Source: Chthoniobacterales bacterium (GTDB taxonomy: Bacteria > Verrucomicrobiota > Verrucomicrobiia > Chthoniobacterales > JAATET01). From it: 64,000 nt of DNA. The position numbers were made by a program, and so were the translations under genes. Of this stretch, positions 36,328-62,783 are shown piece by piece (within the stretch, counting starts at the first letter, position 1; each line of letters starts with the position of its first letter). The stretch covers positions 64,381-128,380 of the forward strand of contig DATCRI010000087.1 of NCBI GenBank assembly GCA_036569045.1. Direction: 5' to 3'. The notes under the pieces are model-generated. The model was given only the letters and a program-made list of their open reading frames with translations. It was not told the DNA's origin and did not search any database.

Positions 36328-36549
36328 ATGAGAATCAGCGTGGACATCGACGATTCGACGTTGGAGGAGGTCATGGCCTTGACCGGGGAGAAGAACAAAA
36401 GTCCCGCCATGGCCAAGGCTCTCACGGAGTTCGTGCGGCGGGCCCGGGCGCGGGAGTTCGGGCGGCTGATCCGGGAGGGTGCTTTCGATTACCCCGATCC
36501 CGAGCCCGGCGACTCCGCCAATCCCGTGCCGCCGCTGCGCCCGGAATAG
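36328..36549 (+). CDS. vapB: VapB-type antitoxin
   Basis: A 73-residue protein. The N-terminal MRISVDIDDSTLEEVMALTG is the ribbon-helix-helix type DNA-binding segment of the VapB/DUF2191 antitoxins, followed by helix KALTEFVRRARAREFGRLI. The C-terminal part (GAFDYPDPEPGD, Pro-rich) is the flexible tail that would wrap the toxin. It is 6 bp upstream of a PIN-domain gene. Only a GAGG immediately next to the ATG resembles a Shine-Dalgarno, which is too close to work normally and fits leaderless translation. Confidence 0.88.
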   Translation: MRISVDIDDSTLEEVMALTGEKNKSPAMAKALTEFVRRARAREFGRLIREGAFDYPDPEPGDSANPVPPLRPE

Positions 36550-36555
36550 AGCGTC

Positions 36556-36981
36556 ATGGTGCTGGTGGATTCGTCGGCGTGGATCGAGGCGTTCCGCCGC
36601 AAGGGACAACTCGAAGTGAAGCTCGCCATCGAGGGGCTGCTGGATGCCTACGAGGCGCAGTGGTGCTCTCCGGTGCGGCTCGAAGTGCTCGGCGGGGCCC
36701 GAAGCGAGGAGCGGGCCCGGCTCGGCCGGCATTTTTCCGTGGTGCCCTACCGCGCCTGCGCGGAGGCGGACTGGGACCGTTCCATTTCCCTTGCCTGGAA
36801 GCTGCGCGACCAAGGGCTCACCGTGCCCTGGCTCGATGTCGTCATCGCCGCGCTCGCCCTGCACGACAACGTCCGCCTCTACACGCTCGACGGTCATTTC
36901 TCCCGCATCGCCGAGATCACCGGCCTGCGCCTCTATCAGCCCGGCTACGCCGGCACGTTCGTGCCCGAAAACGAAAGCTAG
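36556..36981 (+). CDS. vapC: VapC-type PIN-domain ribonuclease toxin
   Basis: A 141-residue PIN-domain protein, partner of the preceding antitoxin. The four acidic residues that bind magnesium are present: Asp5 in VLVDSSAWIEAF, Glu43 in PVRLEVLGG, Asp94 in PWLDVVIAALAL and Asp112 in YTLDGHF. VapC toxins cut tRNA or rRNA in the cytosol when VapB is degraded. It ends 28 bp before the convergent M56/PBP gene. Confidence 0.9.
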   Translation: MVLVDSSAWIEAFRRKGQLEVKLAIEGLLDAYEAQWCSPVRLEVLGGARSEERARLGRHFSVVPYRACAEADWDRSISLAWKLRDQGLTVPWLDVVIAALALHDNVRLYTLDGHFSRIAEITGLRLYQPGYAGTFVPENES

Positions 36982-37009: not shown

Positions 37010-39364
37010 TTAATTCGTCTCCGATGGCGGGGCGATGCTGACCACCGGCTCGAAGCTGCCCTTCGCTGGGGCCAGCGATTTCGGTTCGCTCGCGTCCATC
37101 CGGGAAAGCATCCAGGCCGCGAGGGGAGCCGCCGAGCCGCCTCCGGATTTCGCGCCCTGCACGATCACGCAAATGGCGTATCGGTCCTTTTGCCGGGTCG
37201 CGAAACCCGTAAACCAGCCGTTGATATCGGCGACTCGATTTCCGGCGGAATCCATCCGCCAAATCTGCGCGGAGCCGGTCTTGCCCGCGACATCCATCCC
37301 GGGCAGCCGTGCCTTGATGGCGGTGCCTCCCGATTCATTGACCGCCCGCCACATGCCGCGCCGCACTCGCTCGATGTCATTCGGCGCAATGCCTGCGTCA
37401 GCCACGAGATCGTTGCGAACCTTTGCCGGCTCCACTTTCGCGGGTCGATCCATCGCTTCCCTGCGCTCGATCAGGCGGGGCAGGTAAACCTTGCCGCCGT
37501 TCGCGAGGGACGCGGCGACCATCGCTAGCTGCAGCGGCGACGCGAGAGTGTTGCCCATTCCGATGGAGACATTGGCCGTGTATCCCGCACTCCATTTGTC
37601 CCTGGGGTTGATTTTCGCTAGCGATTCCGGACTGCCAACCACGCCGGGATTCTCACCACTGATCGGCACGCCGGTCTTTTGGCCAAGGCCGAGCCGCCTG
37701 GCCGTGTCCGTCATGGTTTCGATCCCCGCCGCGTTTCCATATTGGTAGAAGTAGAGGTTGCACGAAACTTTCAACGCCTCCTCCATGCCCAGCGTGCCGT
37801 GGGTATGACCGCTGCCGTAGACCCAGCATTTCATCAACACATTCCCATAGCTCACACCCCCGTCGCAGGAGAATTGCTTGTCTCCCAGACCGGCGCGCAG
37901 TCCCGCCAGGGCGGTCACCGTCTTGTAGGCGGAGCCGGGCGTGTAGCCATTCACCGCGCGATTCAGCAGTGGCGCCGTTTCGTCGTTCACGAGAGCCTTC
38001 CATTCCTCGTCCTTGATTGCCGGAAAAAATCGATTCGGATCGAATGACGGCACGGACGCCATTGCGAGAATGTCGCCATTCGCGGGATCGACGATCACTG
38101 CCGCGCCGCGCGCCACCTTGCGCAACGCTTCCTCCGCCGCCATCTGCGCCCGCGCATCGATCGTCAACACCACCACTTCCCCTGGCTTGGGCAGGCGATC
38201 CCGATCGAGATTCCAAAGCAGGCTCGCCGCAAAAGCCCCCAGCGGGTAGCTCGCCAAAGGCCGCTGGTTTTCCCGAGGCCAATACTCCGCCAGCAGCACG
38301 CCGTTCCGATCAACGATCCTGCCGACGCCGGGCTCGGGCCGGATATCCGGCGTGACCGCGCGCGTGAGAAACGTCACCGCGAGCACCGCGGCGGGAATCG
38401 CCCCGATGCGCCACCAGCGGCGCGCGCCCGTCGAGAATCCGGCGATCCATTGGATACGGCGGCGCAGCTCGCTCCGGCTCTCGAAGATTCCGAGCGCCTC
38501 GGCGCCGCTGGGCGTGAAGCCGGTCGACAGCCTCAGCAGGGCCTCGCCATAAGTTCCACGCTGCGTTTCGCCCGACCGTTTGAGCACCCATTCGTCGCAG
38601 GCCAGCTCCCGGTCCGCGCGGATGCGGCGAAACGCGAACCAAAGAACGGGATTGAACCAATGCACGGCGCGCAGCACGGCCAGCAGCATATTGAGATGCA
38701 CGTCTCCGCGCACCCAGTGGCCCAGCTCATGAAGAAGAATAAGGCGGATTTCTTCGTCGTCGAACGCACGCGTAAACCCCTCCGGCAGCAGCATGTGTGG
38801 ACAGAACATCCCGGCGACAGCAGGCCCTTCCTGGCCCGGCATCTGCACCAATCTTACCCGTGCTCGTATTCCCAGCCTGGCGCGGCACTCCTCCAGCATA
38901 TCGCGCAGCCGTTCGTCTTCCGGCTCCCGCAGCCGCTTCAAACGGCGGCGGAACTCGCGATTTTCCCGCACCAGGATGGCCAGCATGACGACTGCGACCA
39001 GCCCCCAGATCACTGCGAAGGCTTCCTTCCAATGGATTGCGACCGGCACGACGCCTGTCTCCTCGGCCATTTTCGCCGGGGGTTCCGGCTCGGGGTGAAA
39101 GGTCTCGAACGGGCCGGGACCGACCCGAATTTCCGGGATCGAAACAGGCGGCGCCGGCGTGAACCAGTTGAAGACGCTGAGGCGGCTTTCCGGCAGCGCC
39201 GGCAGCACCAGCAGAGCAAGCAAAGGCAGCCAGAGCGCGTGCCGCCAGACGGCCGGCAGCCATCGGAGCAAGGCCAGCTGCACCAGCAGGATCAGCCCCA
39301 CCAGCAGGGACGCCTGCCAGGAGCGCTCGATGATCCAGTCGAAACAAGAGACGAGCGCGTTCAT
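37010..39364 (-). CDS. BlaR1-like M56 metalloprotease fused to a class B penicillin-binding transpeptidase
   Basis: A 784-residue membrane protein. The N-terminal half is a BlaR1/MecR1-type M56 domain: TM helices near 15-35, 41-58 and 115-132, the zinc motif HELGH at 212-216, the third ligand region RELACDEW at 252-259 and a fourth helix at about 320-336. The C-terminal half (about 345-784) is not the class D beta-lactamase-like sensor of BlaR1. It is a class B PBP2/MrdA-like transpeptidase with SAYK at 478-481, SCN at 534-536 and KTG at 695-697. Its start overlaps the blaI-like stop by 4 nt. It probably senses beta-lactams or wall stress and cleaves the repressor. Confidence 0.9.
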   Translation of the reverse strand: MNALVSCFDWIIERSWQASLLVGLILLVQLALLRWLPAVWRHALWLPLLALLVLPALPESRLSVFNWFTPAPPVSIPEIRVGPGPFETFHPEPEPPAKMAEETGVVPVAIHWKEAFAVIWGLVAVVMLAILVRENREFRRRLKRLREPEDERLRDMLEECRARLGIRARVRLVQMPGQEGPAVAGMFCPHMLLPEGFTRAFDDEEIRLILLHELGHWVRGDVHLNMLLAVLRAVHWFNPVLWFAFRRIRADRELACDEWVLKRSGETQRGTYGEALLRLSTGFTPSGAEALGIFESRSELRRRIQWIAGFSTGARRWWRIGAIPAAVLAVTFLTRAVTPDIRPEPGVGRIVDRNGVLLAEYWPRENQRPLASYPLGAFAASLLWNLDRDRLPKPGEVVVLTIDARAQMAAEEALRKVARGAAVIVDPANGDILAMASVPSFDPNRFFPAIKDEEWKALVNDETAPLLNRAVNGYTPGSAYKTVTALAGLRAGLGDKQFSCDGGVSYGNVLMKCWVYGSGHTHGTLGMEEALKVSCNLYFYQYGNAAGIETMTDTARRLGLGQKTGVPISGENPGVVGSPESLAKINPRDKWSAGYTANVSIGMGNTLASPLQLAMVAASLANGGKVYLPRLIERREAMDRPAKVEPAKVRNDLVADAGIAPNDIERVRRGMWRAVNESGGTAIKARLPGMDVAGKTGSAQIWRMDSAGNRVADINGWFTGFATRQKDRYAICVIVQGAKSGGGSAAPLAAWMLSRMDASEPKSLAPAKGSFEPVVSIAPPSETN

Positions 39365-39741
39365 TTCTGCCCTTCCCGCTCGCTCAGGATGCGCTTCAAC
39401 TCGCGAATCTCCTCCTTTGTGAGATCCGCCTTCGTCGCGAAGTGCACGAGCAGCGGCTTCCCGGCTCCACCGAACACGCGATTCAGAAACGACTCGCTCT
39501 CGCTATGGACGCACTGCTCGCGCCGGACGAGCGGATGGTAGAGATAGCGATTCCCGTCCGGCTTCGAGGCCAGGGCGCCCTTCTTGACCAGCCGCGCGAG
39601 CAGGGTGCGGATCGTCTGGTGCTTCCATTTCATGCGCTGCGCGAGGCGTTCGATGATCTCCGCCGCGGCCACCGGGGCCGACTCCCATGCAATCTCCATC
39701 ACGCTCCACTCGGACTCCGAGATTTTCGGTGGATTCTTCAT
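39361..39741 (-). CDS. blaI: BlaI/MecI-family transcriptional repressor
   Basis: A 126-residue winged-helix repressor. The start ATG 39741 (MKNPPKISESEWSVMEIAWE) is the canonical N-terminus; a longer frame exists but crosses the operator. DNA-binding helices are at AAEIIERLAQRMKWKHQTIRTLLARL, the wing is KKGALASKPDGNRYLYHPL, and the C-terminal dimerisation helices end ELKRILSEREG. The operon is blaI then the M56/PBP fusion with a 4-nt overlap. Two BlaI-type operators lie just upstream. Confidence 0.94.
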   Translation of the reverse strand: MKNPPKISESEWSVMEIAWESAPVAAAEIIERLAQRMKWKHQTIRTLLARLVKKGALASKPDGNRYLYHPLVRREQCVHSESESFLNRVFGGAGKPLLVHFATKADLTKEEIRELKRILSEREGQK

Positions 39742-39754
39742 AGCGCCGCACAAA

Positions 39755-39772
39755 TGACTACATATGTAGTCA
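39755..39772 (-). promoter_or_regulatory. BlaI operator 1, perfect 18-bp palindrome
   Basis: TGACTACATATGTAGTCA is a perfect palindrome containing the TACA-n-n-TGTA core bound by BlaI/MecI. It is 13 bp upstream of the blaI start codon. Confidence 0.85.
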
Positions 39773-39773
39773 A

Positions 39774-39794
39774 TGTCAACCACAAATGTAGTCA
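39774..39794 (-). promoter_or_regulatory. BlaI operator 2 (imperfect) with embedded -35 box TTGACA
   Basis: The window 39777-39794 matches operator 1 at 13 of 18 positions, with a perfect half-site TGTAGTCA. The centre-to-centre distance to operator 1 is 22 bp, two helical turns. On the minus strand TTGACA (39779-39774) sits between the two sites and is a consensus -35 for blaI; the -10 is not obvious (CATTTG at 17 bp). Confidence 0.7.
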
Positions 39795-39812
39795 CTAGGC
39801 TAATACGCCTAG
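39795..39812 (-). terminator. Short inverted repeat at the end of the ABC ATPase gene
   Basis: CTAGGC and GCCTAG form a perfect 6-bp stem with a 6-nt loop. The repeat contains the ATPase stop codon. No T tract follows. It might act as a weak terminator separating the ABC operon from blaI. Confidence 0.3.
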
Positions 39813-40621
39813 ATGTAACTGGCACGCAGTAGCTCCGCCGCGCGCTCGTCGAGCAGTTCTCGGGCGCGGATCTCGTGGAAACGGTCCACGAGGTCCTCGG
39901 GGCGCAAGCGGCGCTTGTCGGCGCCGCGAATGTCGTGGGCGACCTGTCCTTTGTGCAGCATCACGATGCGGCCGCCGAGATTCACGGCCTGCTGCATCGA
40001 GTGCGTCACCATGAGCGTCGTGAGCTTTTCGCGGCCCACGACTTCCTCGGTAAGCTGGATCACCTGGTCCGCGCTTTTCGGATCGAGCGCGGCGGTGTGC
40101 TCGTCGAGCAGCAGCAGCTTGGGCTTGAGCCAGGTCGCCATGAGGAGCGTGAGCGCCTGGCGCTGCCCGCCGGAGAGCGAACCGATGGCGTTGTCGAGAC
40201 GGTCCTCGAGCCCCATGCGCAACGTGGCGATGCGGGCCCGCAGCTCGTCCATGAGCCGGCGATTCAACGCCCAGCCCAGCCCGCGGCCGAGCCCGCGGCG
40301 CGAGGCGAGGGCGAAGTTTTCCGCGATGGAGAGATTCGGCGCGGTGCCGCTGAAAGGATTCTGGAAAACTCGGCCAATCAGCGCGGCGCGCCGATGCTCG
40401 GGCAGCCGCGTGATGTCGACGCCGGCGAGTCGCAGCGAACCGGAATCGACGTAGAACGAGCCGGCCACGGCATTGAGCAGCGTGGACTTGCCCGAACCGT
40501 TCATCCCAAGAAGCTGCACGAACGAGCCCTCCTCGACCTCGAGATCGATGCCCTGCAAAGCGCGCACTTCGTTCACGGTGCCGGCGTTGAAGGTTTTGCG
40601 AATGTTTTTGAGGGAAAGCAT
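39809..40621 (-). CDS. ABC transporter ATP-binding protein (TrpZ-like amino-acid/aromatic uptake family)
   Basis: A 270-residue ABC ATPase with Walker A GMNGSGKST, signature LSGGQRQALTLL and Walker B KLLLLDEHTAALDP, followed by the H-loop VTHSMQQAVNLGGR. The DEHTAALDP sequence and the partner proteins put it with the ATPases of TrpXYZ-type uptake systems, which use ABC_sub_bind proteins. It is separated from its permease partner by the GxxExxY cassette. No Shine-Dalgarno precedes the start; the bases before it read CCTCCTGTAAAACTG, the complement of a Shine-Dalgarno, because the cassette's repeat arm ends here. Confidence 0.93.
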   Translation of the reverse strand: MLSLKNIRKTFNAGTVNEVRALQGIDLEVEEGSFVQLLGMNGSGKSTLLNAVAGSFYVDSGSLRLAGVDITRLPEHRRAALIGRVFQNPFSGTAPNLSIAENFALASRRGLGRGLGWALNRRLMDELRARIATLRMGLEDRLDNAIGSLSGGQRQALTLLMATWLKPKLLLLDEHTAALDPKSADQVIQLTEEVVGREKLTTLMVTHSMQQAVNLGGRIVMLHKGQVAHDIRGADKRRLRPEDLVDRFHEIRARELLDERAAELLRASYI

Positions 40622-40622
40622 C

Positions 40623-41097
40623 AGTTTTACAGGAGGGAACAGAGGAAACGGAGAAGGTTATTCATTCGCTCCGGGTAACATCATGCGGTGAACACCGTCG
40701 ACCAGCTTGGCCGTTCGAAAGTTGATCAACAACCCAATCGGCACATCGACCAACTTCATGTAGCTTAAAAGCTGCGCCTTATGGATGGGAGCGATCGCCT
40801 CGACGGATTTCAATTCGAGCAGCACACATCCTTCAACGAGAAGATCGAATCTCAGGGCTTCTTCAAATACGAGGCCTTTGTATTCGACCCGAACAGCTTG
40901 CTGACTGAGCACCGCTCGATTGCGGAGTTCGAGTTCGCGCTGCATGCATTTTTCGTAAATCGATTCGATCAATCCCGGCCCTTTCAATCGATGAACCTCT
41001 ATCGCTGCGCCGATGAGATCTTCGGTCAACGAATTCGCCTTCAGAAAAAGCGGATGCATGCCTTTCCTCCCTTCTCTCCGTTGCCTCCTGTAAAACT
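40623..41097. mobile_element. 475-bp GxxExxY cassette with 14-bp terminal inverted repeats
   Basis: AGTTTTACAGGAGG at 40623-40636 is repeated in exact inverted form at 41084-41097. The similarity continues inward imperfectly as purine-rich tracts (AACAGAGGAAACGGAGAAGG against CAACGGAGAGAAGGGAGG). The segment holds one gene, the GxxExxY protein, and separates permease from ATPase in an otherwise tightly packed ABC operon; the right end starts at the permease stop codon. No transposase or target duplication is evident. I read it as a small inserted unit, not an established element type. Confidence 0.55.
40658..41059 (-). CDS. GxxExxY protein (PD-(D/E)XK nuclease-like)
   Basis: A 133-residue protein with the name-giving motif at residues 29-35 (GLIESIY). 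The pattern Asp72 (ALRFDLLVEG), Glu82-x-Lys84 (LLELKSVE) and Gln96-x-x-x-Tyr100 (HKAQLLSYM) is that of PD-(D/E)XK nuclease folds (PDDEXK_3). The family is widespread, often in multiple copies per genome, with no known function. This copy lies between inverted repeats inside an ABC transporter operon. A GGAGG at its 5' flank, in the right repeat, is 25 bp from the start; GGAAAGG is nearer. Confidence 0.9.
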   Translation of the reverse strand: MHPLFLKANSLTEDLIGAAIEVHRLKGPGLIESIYEKCMQRELELRNRAVLSQQAVRVEYKGLVFEEALRFDLLVEGCVLLELKSVEAIAPIHKAQLLSYMKLVDVPIGLLINFRTAKLVDGVHRMMLPGANE

Positions 41098-42020
41098 CAT
41101 GCCGTCCTCCGCTTCATTTTTGCGATCAATCCCGGCAGCACGAGCGCGGCGAAGACGAAGATCGCGGTGATGAGCTTGAGGTCGTTCGGATTCAGGCCCG
41201 CGCGCAGGGCGATTGCGACGAGTTCGCGGAAGAGCACCGAGCCGAAGATCGCGCCGGTCAGCGTCAGCCCGAGGCTGCGCGTGCCTCCGGTCAGCGCCTC
41301 GCCGATGATCACGCTCGCGAGTCCCCACACCACCATGCCGATGCCCATCTGCGCGTCGGCGAAGCCCTGATATTGGGCGAGCAGCGCGCCGGAGAGGGCG
41401 ATGAGTCCATTCGCCAGCGCGAGGCCGAAGATGCGATAGCCCTCCACGTTCGCGCCGAGCGCGCGGACCATCTGCGCATTGTCGCCGGTCGCGCGCATCG
41501 CGGTGCCAATTTCGGTGCGGAAGAAAAAGTAAACCGCCAGCGCCGCCAGAACCGCGCACAGCAGCGCACCGGCCAGCATGCTCAGGTCCGCGGCCGTCAC
41601 CGCCCATCCGAAAAGATTCACCCGCTCGACTCCGAGCAGCTTTTCGCCGAGCGCGCCGGCTTCGCTCGCGAGCGTGCGATCAGCCATGAGCGGCACGTTG
41701 CTCTTGCCCATGATGCGCAGGTTTACCGAGTAGAGCGCGGTCATCACGAGGATACCGGAGAGCAGTGCGTCGATGCGGAACTTCGTGTTGATCACGCCCG
41801 TGAGCGACCCGGCGAGGAAGCCTGCGACGAGTGCGGCGAGCGTGGCGAGCGACGGCGGCCAACCCATGACGATGAGCGTGGCCGCGACGGCGGCGCCGAG
41901 CGTGATCGAGCCGTCGGTGGTGATGTCCGGCACCGAGAAGATGCGGAACGACACCATCACGCCCATCGCAAGGAGCGACAGGATGAGGCCGATGGTGAGG
42001 GCGCCGAGGAGAAGGGTCAT
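41097..42020 (-). CDS. ABC transporter permease (TrpY/branched-chain amino acid type)
   Basis: A 307-residue permease with about nine helices. RIFSVPDITTDGSITLGAAVAA near the N-terminus and the BPD_transp_2 pattern (TGDNAQMVRALGANVEGYRIFGLALANGL, then IGEALTGGTRSLG) match the permeases that accompany ABC_sub_bind binding proteins. The start ATG 42020 overlaps the STAS gene by 4 nt. The usual next gene, the ATPase, is displaced by the GxxExxY cassette. Confidence 0.92.
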   Translation of the reverse strand: MTLLLGALTIGLILSLLAMGVMVSFRIFSVPDITTDGSITLGAAVAATLIVMGWPPSLATLAALVAGFLAGSLTGVINTKFRIDALLSGILVMTALYSVNLRIMGKSNVPLMADRTLASEAGALGEKLLGVERVNLFGWAVTAADLSMLAGALLCAVLAALAVYFFFRTEIGTAMRATGDNAQMVRALGANVEGYRIFGLALANGLIALSGALLAQYQGFADAQMGIGMVVWGLASVIIGEALTGGTRSLGLTLTGAIFGSVLFRELVAIALRAGLNPNDLKLITAIFVFAALVLPGLIAKMKRRTA

Positions 42021-43207
42021 GGCGTGCCGGAAACAGGCGCGACCCAGCAGGCGCCGCGCAGGAATTCGCTGTCGCCGCTGCCCTCGGGGTCGCGGGTGTC
42101 GTTGAGGAGGTGAAGCACGGCCTGCAGTCCGCCAGCCTCGAAGATCTCCCGCACAGTCTCGTCGAGAACGATGGAGCCTTTGCGGATGGGACGGTAGGGG
42201 AAGACGGCGGCATGCACATGGGCCTTCACCGTGCCGTCGGAATCGACCGAACGCAGATGAGCATCCCATTCGGTGCCCGGCCGGGCCACGACGCCGGCGG
42301 CCAGGCACACGCTGTCTCGGAAGGACCGTTCGCTTGTGAAATTCAAGCGGTCGCGGATTTCCGGGAAGCCAAACGGATCGCGCACCAATCCCGACGGCGG
42401 CTGCCGCAGCGCTGCGCCCACGAGTCCCGCGACTTCCGCCGCCAGCACGAAGGCCGCGGCCGGCGCGCCGGAGTTTTCCAGCATCGCGGCGCAGACTTCC
42501 GCCAACGGCACGCCGCGGCATTCCGGCCGCACCTCGAAGCGCAGCAGCAAGCCCGGATCGCCCTCGGCTACGAGCCCGCTCGCCAGCCAGCCCGACGGCA
42601 CATACGCCTGCTCGGCGAGCAGGAAGTCGGGCCGAAGCGCGCCATTGGTGGGCAGATGCGCCACGCAACCGGCCATGCAGAGCATTTCACCGAGGTTTGC
42701 CATCGCTTTCTCCCGCGTCTCCGCCAGGGCGCCCACGCCGAGACCGAAGCGCGGGCGGACAAAGTCGATCTTCTCCCCGCCGGAAACATCGAACGCGCCC
42801 TCGCCAATGGCACGAAGCCGCACCGGCACCGCCGATCCATGGCTTTGCCATTTTGCCGACGCGCTCTCGAAACTGCGCACCTCCCTGGCCGCACCGACAA
42901 CCGGCGCCGGCGCGGCAAGCAGCACGCCGAGACCCGACAATTCGATGACCTTGGCCACGCCGGGCTGGGCGTTGCGCAGGGAGAAGGCTCCCTTGATTGC
43001 GAGCAACTGCTTGTAGCCGGAAATGACGACGCGCAGCCCCGCGGAGCTGATGTAATCGACGCCGGCGAAATCCATCACGATGCTATGCTCGCCGCCGCGA
43101 ATCGCCGACTCCAGCGCGGCCTGCACGGGCTCGGCCCAGGCCGCATCGAGGCGGCCGTTGAGCGTGAGCACGAGCGAATCGTTTTCGTGAGCGCGGTGAA
43201 TTTCCAT
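42017..43207 (-). CDS. STAS-domain protein with a large C-terminal domain of unknown function
   Basis: A 396-residue cytosolic protein. Residues 1-100 are a STAS domain of the anti-sigma-factor-antagonist type. LVLTLNGRLDAAWAEPV and SIVMDFAGVDYISSAGLRVVIS carry the conserved Asp-x-x-x-x-x-Ser-Ser-Gly block with the phosphorylatable Ser. The remaining 290 residues (for example RFGLGVGALAETREKAMANLGEML) are uncharacterised, but PP2C-like or UspA-like features are not seen. It lies between binding-protein and permease genes of an ABC uptake operon, an unusual partner. It may gate transport or link it to a partner-switch. Confidence 0.8.
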   Translation of the reverse strand: MEIHRAHENDSLVLTLNGRLDAAWAEPVQAALESAIRGGEHSIVMDFAGVDYISSAGLRVVISGYKQLLAIKGAFSLRNAQPGVAKVIELSGLGVLLAAPAPVVGAAREVRSFESASAKWQSHGSAVPVRLRAIGEGAFDVSGGEKIDFVRPRFGLGVGALAETREKAMANLGEMLCMAGCVAHLPTNGALRPDFLLAEQAYVPSGWLASGLVAEGDPGLLLRFEVRPECRGVPLAEVCAAMLENSGAPAAAFVLAAEVAGLVGAALRQPPSGLVRDPFGFPEIRDRLNFTSERSFRDSVCLAAGVVARPGTEWDAHLRSVDSDGTVKAHVHAAVFPYRPIRKGSIVLDETVREIFEAGGLQAVLHLLNDTRDPEGSGDSEFLRGACWVAPVSGTP

Positions 43208-43209
43208 CA

Positions 43210-45222
43210 CTAGGGGCGGATCACGGTTTCCATTTCGTCGAGGTAGCCCTGCGGGAGCACGAGGCCGTTCTTCGCGGCATTCGGCAGGCTGGCTTTTTTG
43301 ACCACGTGCGGCGAGAGCAGGAACGGGATTTTCGCGGGACTCTCGCCGTCCATCACGCGCAGGACCATCTTCGCGGTCTGCAAGCCGCACTCGTGATAAT
43401 CGCGGCCGAAGGACACCGGCGCACCAAGCTCGGTGGTGGTGCTGTTGAGCGAGAAGAGCGGCTTTTGCGTCTGGTTCGCCGCGCGCGCGATGGCGGTAAA
43501 GCCCGCGCTGGTGATGTTGTCGGAAATCTGGACGATCGCGTCGATGGGCCTCCCTGCCAGCGACATCGCGGCGTCGGGCAGCTCGGTGGGCGTGCTCACG
43601 GCCACGGTCTCGACCTCGAAGCCCCGGTCGCGCGCATGCGCGACGAAGGTATCCTTGAGATCGACGGAGTTCGCCTCGGCGGGGCAGAAGAGCGTGCCGA
43701 GGCGGCGGTATTGCGGGAAGTGCTTGCGCAGCAAGTCGAGCATCTCGTCGGTGGGCGCGAGCACGGACACGCCGGTGACATTCGGGAGGTGATCGTCGAA
43801 GGATTTTCCAGCGCCGACGATGACGGGATTCGCGATGAGCGTAAAAATCACCGGGCGATCCTTCACCTTGCGGATGGCCGCCTGGAGCGACGGCGTCGAG
43901 ATGGGAATGATGATGTCAGCACCATCGGTGAGCGCGGCATCGACGAGGCTGTTGAGCGTGCCCACGTCGCCCTGGGCATTGAGCAGCTTGAACGTGTAGT
44001 CGCGACCCTCGACGAGCGGCCATTTCGCCATGCCCTCGCGCAATCCGGCAACAGCCTCTTCGGCCGGGGGCGACTCGGTATACATGATCGCGTAAAGCTT
44101 CCACGGATGATCGCGGCGCAGCTTCGGCGCCGGTTCGGCGACGGCTTTGGCCGCCAGGCCGGGCCGCTCTTTTCCGTCGGGCGCGATGATGAGCTTGGCC
44201 CGCTGGCGCACGCTTTCGGGCAGCCTCCAGCCGTTCTTTGCGAGTTCGGCGAGCGCCTGCTCGTTGATGATCACGGACTCGGGCAGATAATTGACGATCT
44301 CGACCTTCGCCGGATCGAGGCCGTCGAGGACGTCCGCCGCGAGCTCGCCCGCGTGCCGGCCGACCTCGTAATAATCGGCGCCAATGTCGAACAGCGCCCC
44401 CTTGCGCGCATTCGGCGGGATCACGCTGAACACGGCGACGCCATTCTTGTTCGCCGCGGCGATGAGCTGGTCGGCGCCGACCATCACCATCACGTCGCCG
44501 GGCAGGAAGATCGCCTCGACACCGCGCGCCACCAGCGCCGCGGCCGCCTCGCCCACGCCGGCGGAGGAATCGATCGTCGCCTCCATGAGCTCGATGCCGA
44601 GACTGGCGCACACCTTGCGCGCGATTTCGATCTGCGCTTCGGAATTGGCCTCCGCCGCATTCCACACCACGCCGACCCGCTTGAGATCGGGCTTCATCGC
44701 GCGGGCGATCTTGAAGGCCGGCTCGACCGGTTGCATCGTGCCGAAGCCGGCCATCCAGGCGGGATGATCGAGCGGGTTCTCGCGGGAAAGTCCCACGCCC
44801 GCCGCCCACGGATCACTCACCACGCCGAAGACATGCCGCTTTTGCGTGGTCTTGTTGGCATTCGCCACCGATTGCAGCGCCAGCGTGCTGACCGTGATCA
44901 GCAGGTCGGCGTCGCCATTCGCCATGTCGCGGGCAATCGCGGCGCCCGTGGCGGTGTCGCCTTCGGCGTTGGACTTCTTCAACTGCATCGTCTGTCCATC
45001 CACGAACCCGCGGTCGCCCAGCGCATCGACCACCCCGCGCACCGCATCGTCGAGCACGGCCTGCGAGGCAGGCTGCGTGAGCGAGATCTTCACCGGTCGA
45101 TCGCGGTCCTGAGCTTTCTTTGCGGCGCTTTTTCTCGATCCGAGATCAGAGACAAGCAGCAAGGCCGCCGCGCCCAGAATGAGCGCGAGACCAAGAGCAA
45201 GACGGCGGCAGACTTCCAGCAT
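43210..45222 (-). CDS. Double-length ABC_sub_bind periplasmic binding protein
   Basis: A 670-residue exported protein with an N-terminal membrane segment (RLALGLALILGAAALLLVSDL, signal anchor). Two ABC_sub_bind (TrpX-like) domains in tandem follow, about 43-345 and 375-665. Each has the family patterns: ADLLITVSTLALQSVANA and ADIIIPISTPSLQAAIRK; RVGVVWNAAEANSEAQIEIA and RLGTLFCPAEANSVDLKD; then FDIGADYYEVGRHAGELAADVLDG and VSFGRDYHECGLQTAKMVLRVMDG. Normal family length is about 320-340, so this is a fused duplication. It probably delivers an aromatic amino acid or similar solute to the permease. Confidence 0.9.
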   Translation of the reverse strand: MLEVCRRLALGLALILGAAALLLVSDLGSRKSAAKKAQDRDRPVKISLTQPASQAVLDDAVRGVVDALGDRGFVDGQTMQLKKSNAEGDTATGAAIARDMANGDADLLITVSTLALQSVANANKTTQKRHVFGVVSDPWAAGVGLSRENPLDHPAWMAGFGTMQPVEPAFKIARAMKPDLKRVGVVWNAAEANSEAQIEIARKVCASLGIELMEATIDSSAGVGEAAAALVARGVEAIFLPGDVMVMVGADQLIAAANKNGVAVFSVIPPNARKGALFDIGADYYEVGRHAGELAADVLDGLDPAKVEIVNYLPESVIINEQALAELAKNGWRLPESVRQRAKLIIAPDGKERPGLAAKAVAEPAPKLRRDHPWKLYAIMYTESPPAEEAVAGLREGMAKWPLVEGRDYTFKLLNAQGDVGTLNSLVDAALTDGADIIIPISTPSLQAAIRKVKDRPVIFTLIANPVIVGAGKSFDDHLPNVTGVSVLAPTDEMLDLLRKHFPQYRRLGTLFCPAEANSVDLKDTFVAHARDRGFEVETVAVSTPTELPDAAMSLAGRPIDAIVQISDNITSAGFTAIARAANQTQKPLFSLNSTTTELGAPVSFGRDYHECGLQTAKMVLRVMDGESPAKIPFLLSPHVVKKASLPNAAKNGLVLPQGYLDEMETVIRP

Positions 45223-56522: not shown

Positions 56523-59500
56523 ATGCCCCCCCGAAACTTTCGCGTGCCAAGAAGATTACTTCGCAAAGAAATTCTCTTTCTTGCTGCCGGGGGATTCATA
56601 CTTACCGCCCAGGCAGGCACGCCGCCGAGCAACGATTCCTTCGCGGATCGCACGAACCTTTCTGGGCGGTCGGTCGTCGTTTCGACATACAACACGTATT
56701 CGACTACAGAGCCGGGGGAGCCCTCCATCGGCAAGTTGATTGCGACAAAATCCCTCTGGTGGTCGTGGACAGCACCCTATACCGGCCTGGCGAATTTTAG
56801 CACTTATGGCAGCGGTTCTCCGCTCGCACTCGGCGTCTTCCTCGGGAACTCCCTGAAATCGCTAAGCACCGTAGGCATCTCGAATGCCACACCCTGGACG
56901 CTGCGTTATTACTCCTCCTATCCCTTTTACTATTCCTATCAGCGCATGAACGGCGATGCTGTGAACGTGCCGGTGCGCAGCGGAGAAACCTACCAGATTC
57001 TCGTCGCGGAGCCCGTCTTCGCGAGCGATACCGCAGACTCCACAAACCACGTCGTGCTGGGCATCAATCAAGCTCCCGCCATCCTCTCCGCTGGCTCTGT
57101 GAATGGAGCATTGAGCCAGAGCCTTTCCTATCAAATCAACGCGAGCCACGCGCCTGCAAGTTACAGCGCTCAAGGCCTGCCGCCAGGCTTGTCACTGGAT
57201 GCTTACACTGGGCTTATTAGCGGAACCCCCACGGCGACCGGCGTGTTCGACGCCACGATTTCTGCGACGAATCCCGGAGGCACGGGCAGTGCAATTGTTC
57301 GCTTCGAGATCGCGAAGGCAGATACCACTGCGCGCGCGCCGGAGCTGGCCTGGGGCTACGCCGTTGCGGATGGCACGGTGGGACAAAGTTTCAGTTACTC
57401 TTCCATCAGCGCCAAAAATACACCGACGGAATTTACAACGGACTCCCTGCCGCCCGGATTGACTTGGTATGTGAGTTCCCTCGGCTCGGCGACGGCTTCT
57501 GCTTACCCCTCCGGCACGCCTACTCAAGCCGGCATTTTCAAAACTACGGTTCGCGCCGCAAACGCCGTCGGCTCCGCGGAAGCATACGTGACATACCGCA
57601 TTCGCGAAAAGCCGCCCGTGCCGGTGCTGCAAAGCGCAGCCGCTGCCTATGGCAAGGTAAGGACGTCCTTTTCCTATTCGCTGTATGGGAGCAACATGAC
57701 GGACGGCACTTACGAGTGCGGGACGCTGCCAGCTGGGCTGCAAATGTCCACACTCGGTTCCATTTCCGGGACGCCGACCGAGGCCGGCACCTTCGAAATT
57801 CCCGTCAAGGTGACCAATGCCGCCGGCTCCACAACTGGCACGCTCACTCTCAACATCGCGGCAGCGGATGCTGCTCCGCCGCCTGTCAAAGCTCCCGTCA
57901 TTACAAGCCCCGCAGGAGCCAGTGGCAATGTGGGCACCTCCTTTTATTATGCGACCAACGCCAACACCCCGGGCGCGCAATACACGGCGAGCGGCCTGCC
58001 GGACGGCCTGACGATCAACCCGACCACCGGCGTCATTTCCGGCTCGCCCAAAGCGAGCGGAAATTACACGGCGACCATCACCGCGAGCAACGAGCTCGGC
58101 ACGAGCACGACGACGCTGACTCTTTCCATCGGCATCCAGAGCCTCTTTGGCCTTAGCTCGCCGACCATGGCAAAGGGCGTCGTCGGCAAATCTTTCAGCT
58201 ACCAGCTCATGGCCGGCACTCCCTCCTATCCTGGTCCCTCATATTCTTCGAGTTCCTTTAAAACCACGGTGCCGACTGCAGCCCTACCTCCAGGCCTCAG
58301 CTACACCCCTTCCAGTTATCAATCTTATCCCTATTACAATTTTCTCGGGACCATCACCGGCAGACCGACGACACCCGGCATTTACCGCGTGCCAGTCACT
58401 ACGGTTTATCAAAATCTCACCGCTCAGGCAGTCCTTACGATTGTCGTCTCGGAGACAGTCACCCAGCCTCCGATCATCACCAGCTCGGCTTCGGCCCAAG
58501 GAAAGGTCGGTCAGAGTTTTTCCTATTCCACCAGCGTATCCAATTACGCCGGAAGCTACGCGGCGAGTGGTCTCCCAGCCGGATTGAGCATCAATGCCAG
58601 CACGGGAGCGATTTCCGGCACGCCCACACAAACGGGAACCTATGTCGTCGATCTCTCCGCAACGAACGCGGTCGGCACGAGCCACGCCAAGCTTACGATC
58701 TTCATCGGCCCCACACCCACGGGAACGTTTTACTCCAACACAGCCTACGAAGGGACTGTTGGCATCTCGCTTTCCATCTGGATCAGTTATTCCAATCCCA
58801 CTTCCGACACGCCGACCTACGCAGCCGAGGATCTGCCACCCGGGTTGCAACTCTCAGCCACCGGTTACATCTCCGGCACCCCCACTACTGCAGGCACCTA
58901 TCCTGTCACCATTTCCGCCACGAATGCCGGAGGCACGACGAGCATCGTGCAGACGTTCCTCATTCACGCTGCGCCCAAGCCGCCAGTCCTCACCAGTGAC
59001 CTCATGGCTACGGGCAATGTCGGCGCGTCATTTTCCTATTCCCCTTACACTTCCTCGGCGGGATCAGTGACTTACGAGTTCGGCCAGATGCCACCCGGCT
59101 TGACGGTCAGTAACGGCTGGATCTCTGGCAAGCCAACTCAGTCGGGGACCTACGAGATTCCCATCATAGCTGCAAACGCGGGTGGCTCGACCTCCGGCGT
59201 CCTCACGTTGAAAATCGGGCCGCCAGTGCCACCAAGCCTGTCCACAACTGTCTCTGCACTGGCGCCGCGCGGACAAAATTTTTCCAAGTCGTTTTACCCC
59301 TCCAACACCACGAGCGCCTCGGTCTCGGGCACGTTGCCGGCGGGCATCACCTTCAACGCGCAGAATTTTCAGCTCTCGGGCACGCCGACCGAGAACGGCG
59401 TCTTTCCCCTGGAAATCATACTGAACGGCCCGGGCGGCACGATCACCGTGCCCTTCACGCTCTATGTCACGCCACCGCCGCTACCAGTGGTCACCAGCTC

Positions 59501-62500
59501 GCTGATCGCGAATTTTAGCTCTTCGACTTACAGCTATTTTTATGCGGACAACTACCCGACGGCTTTTTCCGCACAGGGTCTGCCGACGGGGCTCACTTTT
59601 TCTAACGAATCCAGCTACGCCTACGCCTATAAATCCGGGGGCTTCGCGTCTCAAGGGCTGGTTCCTGCCACGATTACAGCGACGAATTTCACCGGCTCCA
59701 GCTCGGCAGTCGTCCATTTCACGAGCAACTCGAACCTTCAGTATGATTTCGGCAAGGCGATGGCGGAAGGCATCGTGGGCGAAGCCTTTTCTTATACGCT
59801 CTACTCCGGCTCGAACACCTTCATGACGGGCCGCGCGTATTTCGCGACAAACCTGCCTCCGGGCCTCGCCATCGACTCCACGACCGGAAAGATCACTGGA
59901 ACACCCACGACGGCAGGCACCTACGCCGTAAATATCACCGCCACCCACAGCTCGTATGTGTCGCTTTCGTTCACACTCATGATTCGCGTGAAAGCTACGC
60001 CCGAGCTTCTTGTCATCACGTCGAACAACGTGATCACCGCTACGCCCGGTCAGTCGATAAGTTACTGGATAGAGACATCCGGAAAGGCCACCAGCTACGC
60101 GCTCACCCCCATTCCGCCGGGCCTCACCTTTGATTCCACCACGGGAAAATTGAGCGGCACGCCCACCACGGCCGGGGAATACAAAGTTCAGGTCAGTGCC
60201 ACGAATGCCGCCGGCACGCGCTCCGCGAATGTCCTTGTGCGAATCGCCACGACACCCGCGGCGCCGATCTTTTATTCGGATCTGAGTCTCCAAGGCTCGG
60301 TCGGCGATAGCTTCAGCTCGTATCTCTCGGCGTCGGACAGTCCGACGAGCTACGCGGCAAGCGGGTTACCGCCGGGGATCACTCTCAAGACATCGACGGG
60401 CGAGCTCTCCGGCACGCCAACGGCCGCCGGAACTTATCTCGCACAAGTCCAGGCCGTGAACGCTGGCGGCACGACGACCGCGAAGCTCGCCTTCGTTGTT
60501 CTGGAGCAGCAGACCCCTATCATTTCCACCGACACCGAGCAGATCGGCACAGTGGGCGACTCCTTCTCTTGCACACTCTCGGCTTTGCACACACCGACCT
60601 CCTTCACGGCCTCAAACCTCCCACCCGGGCTTTCCCTGGATTCCGCAATAGGTAAGATATCTGGAACGCCGACTCAGGCCGGAGATTATCTCGTGCCCGT
60701 GATGGCATCAAATGCGACCGCCTCCGGAGCCGCGACGCTCACTCTGCGCATTCAACCTCGCGTTCCAGGTTGGTTGTCCTCCGCGGCGGCAGCGCAAGGT
60801 CTAGTGGGCGAAAAGCTCTCCATCTCGCTCTATGCCTCGCAGTCGAACTCGACATTTTCCGCCGAGAACCTTCCCGATGGCCTTTCGCTATCGTCCGCTG
60901 GCACGACCATTACCGGCATTCCTACGGTTGCAGGCCAATACGAAATCCCCGTTCATGTGAAGCGGGGCGACACGGAGACCACCTCGATTCTTTCTCTTAC
61001 CATCGCCGCAACGCCCACGGCGCCACCGACCATTACCAGCGCGCTCACGGCATTCGTCGGCTCCGGCTATAGTTACACCCTCTCAACCACAAACCTCCCC
61101 ACTTCTCTCGGGGTCGAAAATCTGCCGACCGGCGTCACATTCGATCCCACAACCGGCGTCATCTCCGGCACTCCGAAAACCTCTGGTGCCACGGACATCA
61201 CCATCACAGCCGACAACGCTATAGGACAAAGCACAGCGACCGTGCGACTCGTCACCATCGCGCCGCCCACATCCATCGTCACCACGAACGCGAATATTTA
61301 TGCCACCGCAAGCATGGCCTTCGCTTACCCAATAGCGTTGAGCACCGAGGTTTACGACCCTTTCTCATATTACTACTACCCACCCTACTTCCCCTACAGT
61401 GGCCCCACGGCGTTGCCTCCGACAATTACTGCGCGCGGCCTGCCGCCGGGCATGTTCTTCAACCCCCTCACGCAGCAAATCGAAGGCACCGCCACTGCGG
61501 CCGGAGATTATTCCGTGGAGCTGACCGCCAGCACGGCTCTCGCCGAGACCACCACGCATATCACGCTTCACGTCAGCGAATCTCCCTCTGCTCCCTCGTC
61601 AACACTTCAAGTTTCCTCGGGCCTGGATCTCGACACCTTCGGCGCCGTGGGCTCGACTTTCTCACTGAATATCTTCCCCGTCGGCCTGGCCACGGAGCTT
61701 GTCTCTACCGAACTGCCGCCCGGCATCGTTCTCTCGAAGGAATACGGTATCTCGAACGGCTTCCGCACGCTTATTGGAAAACTCTCCGGCAGCCCGACGA
61801 AATCCGGCGTCTATCCCGTAAAGTTCACGTTCTCGAACGCGGAGCAAAGCGCCAGCGCCATCGTGACCATTGTCATTCCCGAAGTGCCCGAACTTCCCGT
61901 CTTTTCGGGAGCTGTAGCCGCCTCCGGCACGGTCGGCAAAAACTTCTCCTACTACATCGGCGACGGCTCCGGCTATCTCCTCAACAACGCCGCCACCGCA
62001 TACGGCCTTGCCGACGCGCCGCCCGGCCTGAAATTCGATCTGCAATCTCACCAAATCACGGGCACCCCGACGCAGCACGGCACGTTTTTCGTTCCGGTCT
62101 CCCTCACAAATGCCGGCGGCACCACGGAGGCGACCCTCACGATCTCGATTGCCAGCGAAGAACCCGCAATTCCCCAGATCATCGGCTCAAGCGGCACTTT
62201 ACAGGCTGGTGAGGTCGGCTACATCGGCGAGACATTCACCCTTTCTCTTAAGGCCGACAGCCCCCTGGCCGATCTTACAATCTCGAATCTTCCCGCGGGC
62301 CTGATCCTCCAGAAAAAAGCCGATGGTTTCTGGACGCTTACCGGCACTCCGACGAAAATCGGCACGTCCCATCTTCTCCTCACGGCCACAAACGCTGCCG
62401 GCACCAGCACGATCCCACTCACGCTGAATGTCCGGAGCCTTGACGAGAGCACGCCGCTCCCTCCACCCGAGCCCAGCCCAGCCTCGACGCCGAAGCCGAT

Positions 62501-62783
62501 TGATTCGACTCCTCCCAGTTTGGTCGTTCAGAGCCCCAGCCTCGTCCTCACGAAGAAGTCGTCACTGCTCGTGCGGGGTCGCGTTCTGCACAGGAAGTCC
62601 GGAATCACGGTGACGGCACGCTGGGTCAACACTCTTCCCTGGCGGAAAATTCGCGTCTCTCCATCCGGCAAATTCTCCGTTCTTGTGAGTCCGTTACCCA
62701 AAGGTCTCTGCATATTGACGATTCGTCTGGAAAATTCGTCCGGCAGGAAAAGCGTAAAGAAAATCAAAATCTACCGCAGCTGA
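56523..62783 (+). CDS. Giant secreted protein with about 20 putative-Ig (He_PIG) repeats
   Basis: A 2086-residue protein with an N-terminal signal-like segment (LLRKEILFLAAGGFILTAQAG) after a basic start. A PPC-like domain follows (PPSNDSFADRTNLSG, KSLWWSWTAPYTG; about 30-180), then about 20 He_PIG repeats of roughly 85-90 residues. The repeat hallmark is LPPGLS-x-x-x-x-TG-x-ISGTPT-x-AG near the middle of each. After a Pro/Ser-rich linker (LPPPEPSPASTPKP) comes a basic C-terminal beta domain of about 85 residues ending IKIYRS. There is no autotransporter or sortase tag. Codon use is visibly more A/T-rich than neighbours. A Shine-Dalgarno-like GGAGAAG precedes the ATG. Probably an adhesin or matrix protein. 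Confidence 0.85.
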   Translation: MPPRNFRVPRRLLRKEILFLAAGGFILTAQAGTPPSNDSFADRTNLSGRSVVVSTYNTYSTTEPGEPSIGKLIATKSLWWSWTAPYTGLANFSTYGSGSPLALGVFLGNSLKSLSTVGISNATPWTLRYYSSYPFYYSYQRMNGDAVNVPVRSGETYQILVAEPVFASDTADSTNHVVLGINQAPAILSAGSVNGALSQSLSYQINASHAPASYSAQGLPPGLSLDAYTGLISGTPTATGVFDATISATNPGGTGSAIVRFEIAKADTTARAPELAWGYAVADGTVGQSFSYSSISAKNTPTEFTTDSLPPGLTWYVSSLGSATASAYPSGTPTQAGIFKTTVRAANAVGSAEAYVTYRIREKPPVPVLQSAAAAYGKVRTSFSYSLYGSNMTDGTYECGTLPAGLQMSTLGSISGTPTEAGTFEIPVKVTNAAGSTTGTLTLNIAAADAAPPPVKAPVITSPAGASGNVGTSFYYATNANTPGAQYTASGLPDGLTINPTTGVISGSPKASGNYTATITASNELGTSTTTLTLSIGIQSLFGLSSPTMAKGVVGKSFSYQLMAGTPSYPGPSYSSSSFKTTVPTAALPPGLSYTPSSYQSYPYYNFLGTITGRPTTPGIYRVPVTTVYQNLTAQAVLTIVVSETVTQPPIITSSASAQGKVGQSFSYSTSVSNYAGSYAASGLPAGLSINASTGAISGTPTQTGTYVVDLSATNAVGTSHAKLTIFIGPTPTGTFYSNTAYEGTVGISLSIWISYSNPTSDTPTYAAEDLPPGLQLSATGYISGTPTTAGTYPVTISATNAGGTTSIVQTFLIHAAPKPPVLTSDLMATGNVGASFSYSPYTSSAGSVTYEFGQMPPGLTVSNGWISGKPTQSGTYEIPIIAANAGGSTSGVLTLKIGPPVPPSLSTTVSALAPRGQNFSKSFYPSNTTSASVSGTLPAGITFNAQNFQLSGTPTENGVFPLEIILNGPGGTITVPFTLYVTPPPLPVVTSSLIANFSSSTYSYFYADNYPTAFSAQGLPTGLTFSNESSYAYAYKSGGFASQGLVPATITATNFTGSSSAVVHFTSNSNLQYDFGKAMAEGIVGEAFSYTLYSGSNTFMTGRAYFATNLPPGLAIDSTTGKITGTPTTAGTYAVNITATHSSYVSLSFTLMIRVKATPELLVITSNNVITATPGQSISYWIETSGKATSYALTPIPPGLTFDSTTGKLSGTPTTAGEYKVQVSATNAAGTRSANVLVRIATTPAAPIFYSDLSLQGSVGDSFSSYLSASDSPTSYAASGLPPGITLKTSTGELSGTPTAAGTYLAQVQAVNAGGTTTAKLAFVVLEQQTPIISTDTEQIGTVGDSFSCTLSALHTPTSFTASNLPPGLSLDSAIGKISGTPTQAGDYLVPVMASNATASGAATLTLRIQPRVPGWLSSAAAAQGLVGEKLSISLYASQSNSTFSAENLPDGLSLSSAGTTITGIPTVAGQYEIPVHVKRGDTETTSILSLTIAATPTAPPTITSALTAFVGSGYSYTLSTTNLPTSLGVENLPTGVTFDPTTGVISGTPKTSGATDITITADNAIGQSTATVRLVTIAPPTSIVTTNANIYATASMAFAYPIALSTEVYDPFSYYYYPPYFPYSGPTALPPTITARGLPPGMFFNPLTQQIEGTATAAGDYSVELTASTALAETTTHITLHVSESPSAPSSTLQVSSGLDLDTFGAVGSTFSLNIFPVGLATELVSTELPPGIVLSKEYGISNGFRTLIGKLSGSPTKSGVYPVKFTFSNAEQSASAIVTIVIPEVPELPVFSGAVAASGTVGKNFSYYIGDGSGYLLNNAATAYGLADAPPGLKFDLQSHQITGTPTQHGTFFVPVSLTNAGGTTEATLTISIASEEPAIPQIIGSSGTLQAGEVGYIGETFTLSLKADSPLADLTISNLPAGLILQKKADGFWTLTGTPTKIGTSHLLLTATNAAGTSTIPLTLNVRSLDESTPLPPPEPSPASTPKPIDSTPPSLVVQSPSLVLTKKSSLLVRGRVLHRKSGITVTARWVNTLPWRKIRVSPSGKFSVLVSPLPKGLCILTIRLENSSGRKSVKKIKIYRS

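Follow-up and report, generated by a model that had tools for sequence, protein, structure and literature searches.

The textbook route for the sensing of β-lactams runs through BlaR1-type receptors. In the Staphylococcus aureus system, the zinc-site residues of BlaR1 are H201, H205, E242, and D246, and its repressor BlaI is cut at Asn101-Phe102, the Phe at P1′ being almost invariant (PMC9834060). Two Bacillus systems also bear comparison: PbpP of Bacillus thuringiensis is a penicillin-binding protein (PBP) proposed as a β-lactam sensor leading to the proteolysis of a regulator (PMC8092216), and in Bacillus licheniformis a wall dipeptide directly affects BlaI/MecI (PMC3305447).

The locus discussed here lies in a stretch of 64,000 nucleotides from a Chthoniobacterales bacterium, hereafter the window. 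Its particular feature is that the domain joined to the BlaR1-like protease is of the PBP2 type, so that the presumed sensor is a copy of the domain that the drug targets. Searches of a limited literature collection returned no description of M56-PBP2 fusions.

Architecture of the Fusion Protein

A preliminary description of this DNA had reported, within 37010-39741, an M56 protease with an intact HELGH site, fused to an MrdA-type domain that keeps SxxK, SxN, and KTG, and paired with a BlaI repressor. All of these points hold, with the clarification that the span comprises blaI and the fusion gene together (Table 1). The protease and the MrdA-type domain are encoded in a single open frame and are recognized by Pfam and NCBIfam models, and the PF03965 repressor gene overlaps the start of the fusion gene by 4 nt. 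In the protease half, residues 191-278 align to the BlaR1 structure 8exp (phmmer), and H212, H216, E253, and D257 are spaced as H201, H205, E242, and D246 of BlaR1.

Table 1. Features of the M56-PBP2 locus (positions in the window; residues of the encoded protein)
Feature	Position	Strand	Remarks
M56-PBP2 fusion gene	37010..39364	-	784 aa, one uninterrupted frame; stop codon within coordinates
PBP2-type transpeptidase domain	37100..38191	-	residues ~392-755; TIGR03423, PF00905, best PDB matches MrdA
KTG	37274..37282	-	residues 695-697
SxN (SCN)	37757..37765	-	residues 534-536
SxxK (SAYK)	37922..37933	-	residues 478-481
Class B PBP N-terminal module relic, GRIVDRNGVLLAE	38276..38323	-	residues 348-363; seen on aligning the genome's PBP2 and further fusions
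Peptidase_M56 domain	38444..39322	-	residues 15-307, Pfam 184 bits
HELGH zinc-binding motif	38717..38731	-	residues 212-216; third ligand E253, then D257
BlaI/MecI/CopY-family repressor	39361..39741	-	126 aa; PF03965 119.6 bits; BlaI models
Operator-like perfect dyad, ACTACATATGTAGT	39757..39770	.	repeat search
Second operator-like dyad, ACCACAAATGTAGT	39779..39792	.	22 bp from first, start to start

With regard to the sensor domain, the best NCBIfam model for the fusion protein is that of PBP2/MrdA, TIGR03423, which scores 336 bits over model positions 221-588 of 593 and stays below its equivalog cut-off (455). The transpeptidase family PF00905 covers residues 420-750 with 194 bits (Pfam), and the solved structures closest to this domain in a PDB search are MrdA proteins. 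A class D identity was considered and ruled out, the class D β-lactamase models of NCBIfam reaching only 17-19 bits against the 336 of the PBP2 model. The model blaR1_generic, for its part, covers only the protease half (residues 19-327, 165 bits versus a cut-off of 400).

Is this then a complete class B PBP, as had been claimed? The transpeptidase domain is whole; the head module is missing. PBP_dimer (PF03717) was not detected by Pfam in the window fusion, and it gives 112 bits on the separate full-length PBP2 encoded elsewhere in the same genome (L002). When the two proteins are aligned, GRIVDRNGVLLAE and YPLGAFAAS are kept in the fusion, which then passes straight to LTIDARAQ, so that ~45 residues stand where the genome's own PBP2 has ~250: the dimerization/head module has been excised. 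The C-terminal tail is common to PBP2. By identity, the nearest relative of the transpeptidase domain is a PBP2 of the same order (57%), and the genome's own PBP2 shares 56%. Since the SxxK/SxN/KTG triad is intact, acylation of the window protein by β-lactams is plausible. A structure prediction of the fusion from a five-row alignment had a mean pLDDT of 34.8 and was not used.

Could an error of assembly, or the accidental joining of two genes, have produced the fusion? The assembly is a draft (91 contigs), and a frameshift between two separate genes had been named beforehand as a finding that would refute the fusion. Such a frameshift is rejected because a genome of the same genus (G001) carries a full-length, syntenic orthologue (L032:5782-8397) with 51% identity, distributed as 46% in the M56 domain, 54% in the linker, and 56% in the transpeptidase domain. 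By eye, the surroundings of this orthologue are also alike: upstream comes a BlaI gene of the same kind, preceded by a gene for an ABC-transporter ATPase, and on the other side a peroxiredoxin gene follows. Together with the single open frame in the window and 12 further fusions in other genomes, this makes an artefact very improbable. The other two genomes of the genus gave no M56 match at the search threshold.

Some side observations may be added. The G001 fusion and a second M56 protein of the window genome (L005:2-1429) share the C-terminal tail SPF...VDV...PY.GR.F.VP and are otherwise unlike. In the window, the fusion gene is separated from the peroxiredoxin gene by a VapBC-like pair (36331-36981, +), made of a VapB-type antitoxin gene (36331-36549, PF09957) followed by a PIN-domain gene (36556-36981). 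No such pair was seen at the corresponding position of G001 (L032), so that it looks like an insertion. Inspection by eye further indicated a 670-aa protein with two tandem halves resembling ABC-transporter substrate-binding proteins (43210-45222, -), close to a permease-like frame (41097-42668) and to the ATPase gene (39809-40621), and a 2086-aa frame (56523-62783, +) with LPPGL...TGxISGTPT...G repeats, like putative surface proteins with Ig-like repeats.

The Repressor and Its Operator-like Sites

The two dyads of Table 1 lie upstream of blaI, in the gap that separates it from the end of the ABC ATPase gene. They conform to the TACA/TGTA-type consensus of BlaI/MecI operators, in tandem and in front of a repressor gene. 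By chance, the window would hold 0.19 matches to the dyad with two mismatches or fewer, and in the whole genome (3.4 Mb) these two are the sole matches, both for the 14-mer at ≤1 mismatch and for the 18-mer at ≤3 mismatches. At the same place upstream of its orthologue, G001 has two TACNNNNGTA sites, again 22 bp apart. Because these deviate more, degenerate operators elsewhere would escape the search. In the window repressor, His100-Phe101 falls in the region of the S. aureus BlaI cut, as placed by eye and without alignment.

On sequence grounds, the BlaI-fusion module looks self-regulated. The earlier suggestion that the regulon may be wall synthesis found no support: apart from degenerate sites that may be missed, the genome-wide operator searches gave only the two sites directly preceding blaI. 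The statement that no β-lactamase adjoins the fusion was borne out, as none was seen by eye in its neighborhood. A class A β-lactamase is encoded elsewhere in the genome (C11), with STFK, SDN, EPDLN, and KTG present, and no TACNNNNGTA site was found in the 3.7 kb around it. No gene of the autoregulated operon is an obvious effector, which counts against the reading of the module as a switch that is given below.

Occurrence and Motif Constraint among Relatives

A survey of M56-PBP fusions had been proposed as a check on the preliminary description. The genomes searched were 213 from the order, a sample of 388 from the phylum, and 145 of one family (f15), together with 384 of the class for which a profile of nine fusions was used. 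These sets overlap and amount to 878 different genomes, all in the window's own phylum. Among them, 14 M56-PBP2 fusions were found, all in one class (probably Verrucomicrobiae), and they can be arranged into group A (G000, which is the window genome, and G001), group B (nine in f15), and group C (G851, G425, and G275). Since the PBP2 clade of family f15 includes the named record L006, this family is probably Akkermansiaceae; the window genome belongs to the same class. A BlaI-type gene is directly upstream of the fusion in every case (14/14), and, by eye, no other neighbor recurs in the other fusion loci.

The two halves of these proteins have fared differently. HExxH...E...D is intact in all 14 fusions, whereas SxxK, SxN, and KTG occur together in only three (G000, G001, and G851). 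In the same alignment, 67 of 70 separate, full-length PBPs have all three motifs, and the remaining three differ only by KSG. Within the 11 fusions with a damaged triad, the acylation serine is missing in two (G451 and G275) and the SxxK lysine in five. Groups A and B are devoid of most of the head module; the G425 and G275 fusions (L182:2100-4988 and L183:2613-5393, respectively) keep a PBP_dimer match of 61-71 bits, so that in them M56 is joined to a class B PBP that is almost entire but whose active-site motifs are damaged.

The intact protease in 14/14, as opposed to the triad in 3/14, means that sensing and proteolysis are conserved and transpeptidation mostly is not; judged by their sequences, the fusions resemble sensors of the cell wall or of antibiotics, not enzymes that build the wall. 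Moreover, some have no acylation serine or lysine, so that the signal cannot in every fusion be ordinary β-lactam acylation.

Head-less PBP2-like proteins also occur on their own, free-standing and without M56. One in G033 (L033:7382-8749, -) has an intact frame with SxxK changed to AxxL, and another in G012 (L034:6926-8071, -) likewise has AxxL, in a frame disturbed in its second half.

How many times did these fusions arise? On the M56-domain tree, the AU test rejected groups A and B as one clade (p 1.5e-4) and likewise A and C (p 1.5e-4), and did not reject B and C (p 0.16); an earlier M56-domain test with nine fusions had rejected a single clade with p 1e-11. Because of these rejections, at least two M56 backbones carry PBP2 domains. 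A single origin of all fusions is rejected on the M56 domain, but mostly not on the PBP domain, where one clade gave p 0.08 to 0.30, with 0.009 for one subset. One PBP donor with domain swapping would be compatible with these trees, and so would several captures.

Proposed Function and Alternatives

What the sequences show directly comprises the domains with their intact catalytic residues, the order of the genes, the operator-like sites, the recurrence of the fusion among relatives, and the constraint that acts on the protease. The reading that we prefer, to which a probability of roughly 0.6 may be given, is that of a self-contained, two-gene switch of the BlaR1/BlaI type, in which the head-less PBP2 domain serves as the extracytoplasmic sensor and sensing, rather than cross-linking, is the main task. 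With BlaI dimers bound at both dyads in front of blaI, expression of the operon would stay low. Acylation of the PBP2 domain by a β-lactam would then activate the membrane M56 protease, which would cut BlaI near His100-Phe101, and the operon would be derepressed.

Sensing and catalysis might also be combined, as the preliminary description had it when it proposed a bifunctional sensor and transpeptidase. The sensor part of that proposal stands, with a BlaR1-like architecture and an intact triad; the enzymatic part is weakened. It would imply that derepression makes more of an intact PBP2 domain, which replaces a blocked PBP2 or soaks up the drug, so that a single chain would in effect do the work of MecR1 and MecA. 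The window protein and its G001 orthologue do keep every one of the three catalytic motifs, and, as the only operator-like sites found in the genome precede this operon, the fusion itself would be the induced product. Nevertheless, three points make such an inducible transpeptidase or drug sink quite unlikely: the head/dimerization module is missing, the genome has a full-length PBP2 of its own (L002), and the triad has decayed in 11 of the 14 fusions, whereas every one of them keeps the protease residues. Sensing could instead proceed by binding of a wall ligand (stem peptide or lipid II) or of a PBP2 partner protein, with no need of acylation and with β-lactams as at most one input. Five fusions without the acylation serine or lysine (G451, G275, G425, G462, and G698) and yet with an intact protease and BlaI point in this direction, and the direct action of the wall dipeptide on BlaI/MecI in B. 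licheniformis (PMC3305447) is a precedent. This reading is nonetheless unlikely: the triad of the window protein is complete, and a sensor that binds non-covalently would have no obvious need of it.

Beyond the single locus, the set of fusions invites a broader and rather doubtful reading: PBP2 and a BlaR1-type protease were joined on at least two M56 backbones, most of the products shed acylation, and the signal would be the substrate status of PBP2 and not the β-lactam alone. If so, the ligands of PBP2 (its substrate, a partner, or the drug) would be read by a sensor that is itself a copy of the target. Such sensors, which recur on separate protease backbones and in many cases have lost acylation residues, would demonstrate that the status of wall synthesis can become the input of the M56-BlaI switch. 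Nature has provided variants with the triad intact or lost, and these allow testing of whether signaling needs acylation.

Comparison with Known Systems

The closest counterpart of the module is BlaR1/MecR1 with BlaI/MecI of S. aureus (PMC9834060). Both have a membrane M56 gluzincin with the same spacing of zinc ligands, a C-terminal extracytoplasmic sensor of the transpeptidase fold, and a paired gene for a BlaI-type repressor. TACA/TGTA-type dyads are a further point in common with the BlaI/MecI systems. The differences are that the sensor of the fusion matches PBP2/MrdA and not the usual class D-like domain, and that neither a β-lactamase nor mecA is adjacent, the only operator-like sites found being the module's own.

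With PBP2/MrdA, the class B PBP of the elongasome, the fusion shares the SxxK/SxN/KTG transpeptidase domain, at 56-57% identity to PBP2 of the order, and the common C-terminal tail; it departs from it in having no head/dimerization module, in being joined to a protease, and in a triad that is mostly decayed in the related fusions. PbpP offers the parallel of a PBP as the proposed β-lactam sensor upstream of the proteolysis of a regulator. Unlike the fusion, however, PbpP stands alone as a PBP, carries no protease domain, and acts on the anti-sigma factor RsiP (PMC8092216).
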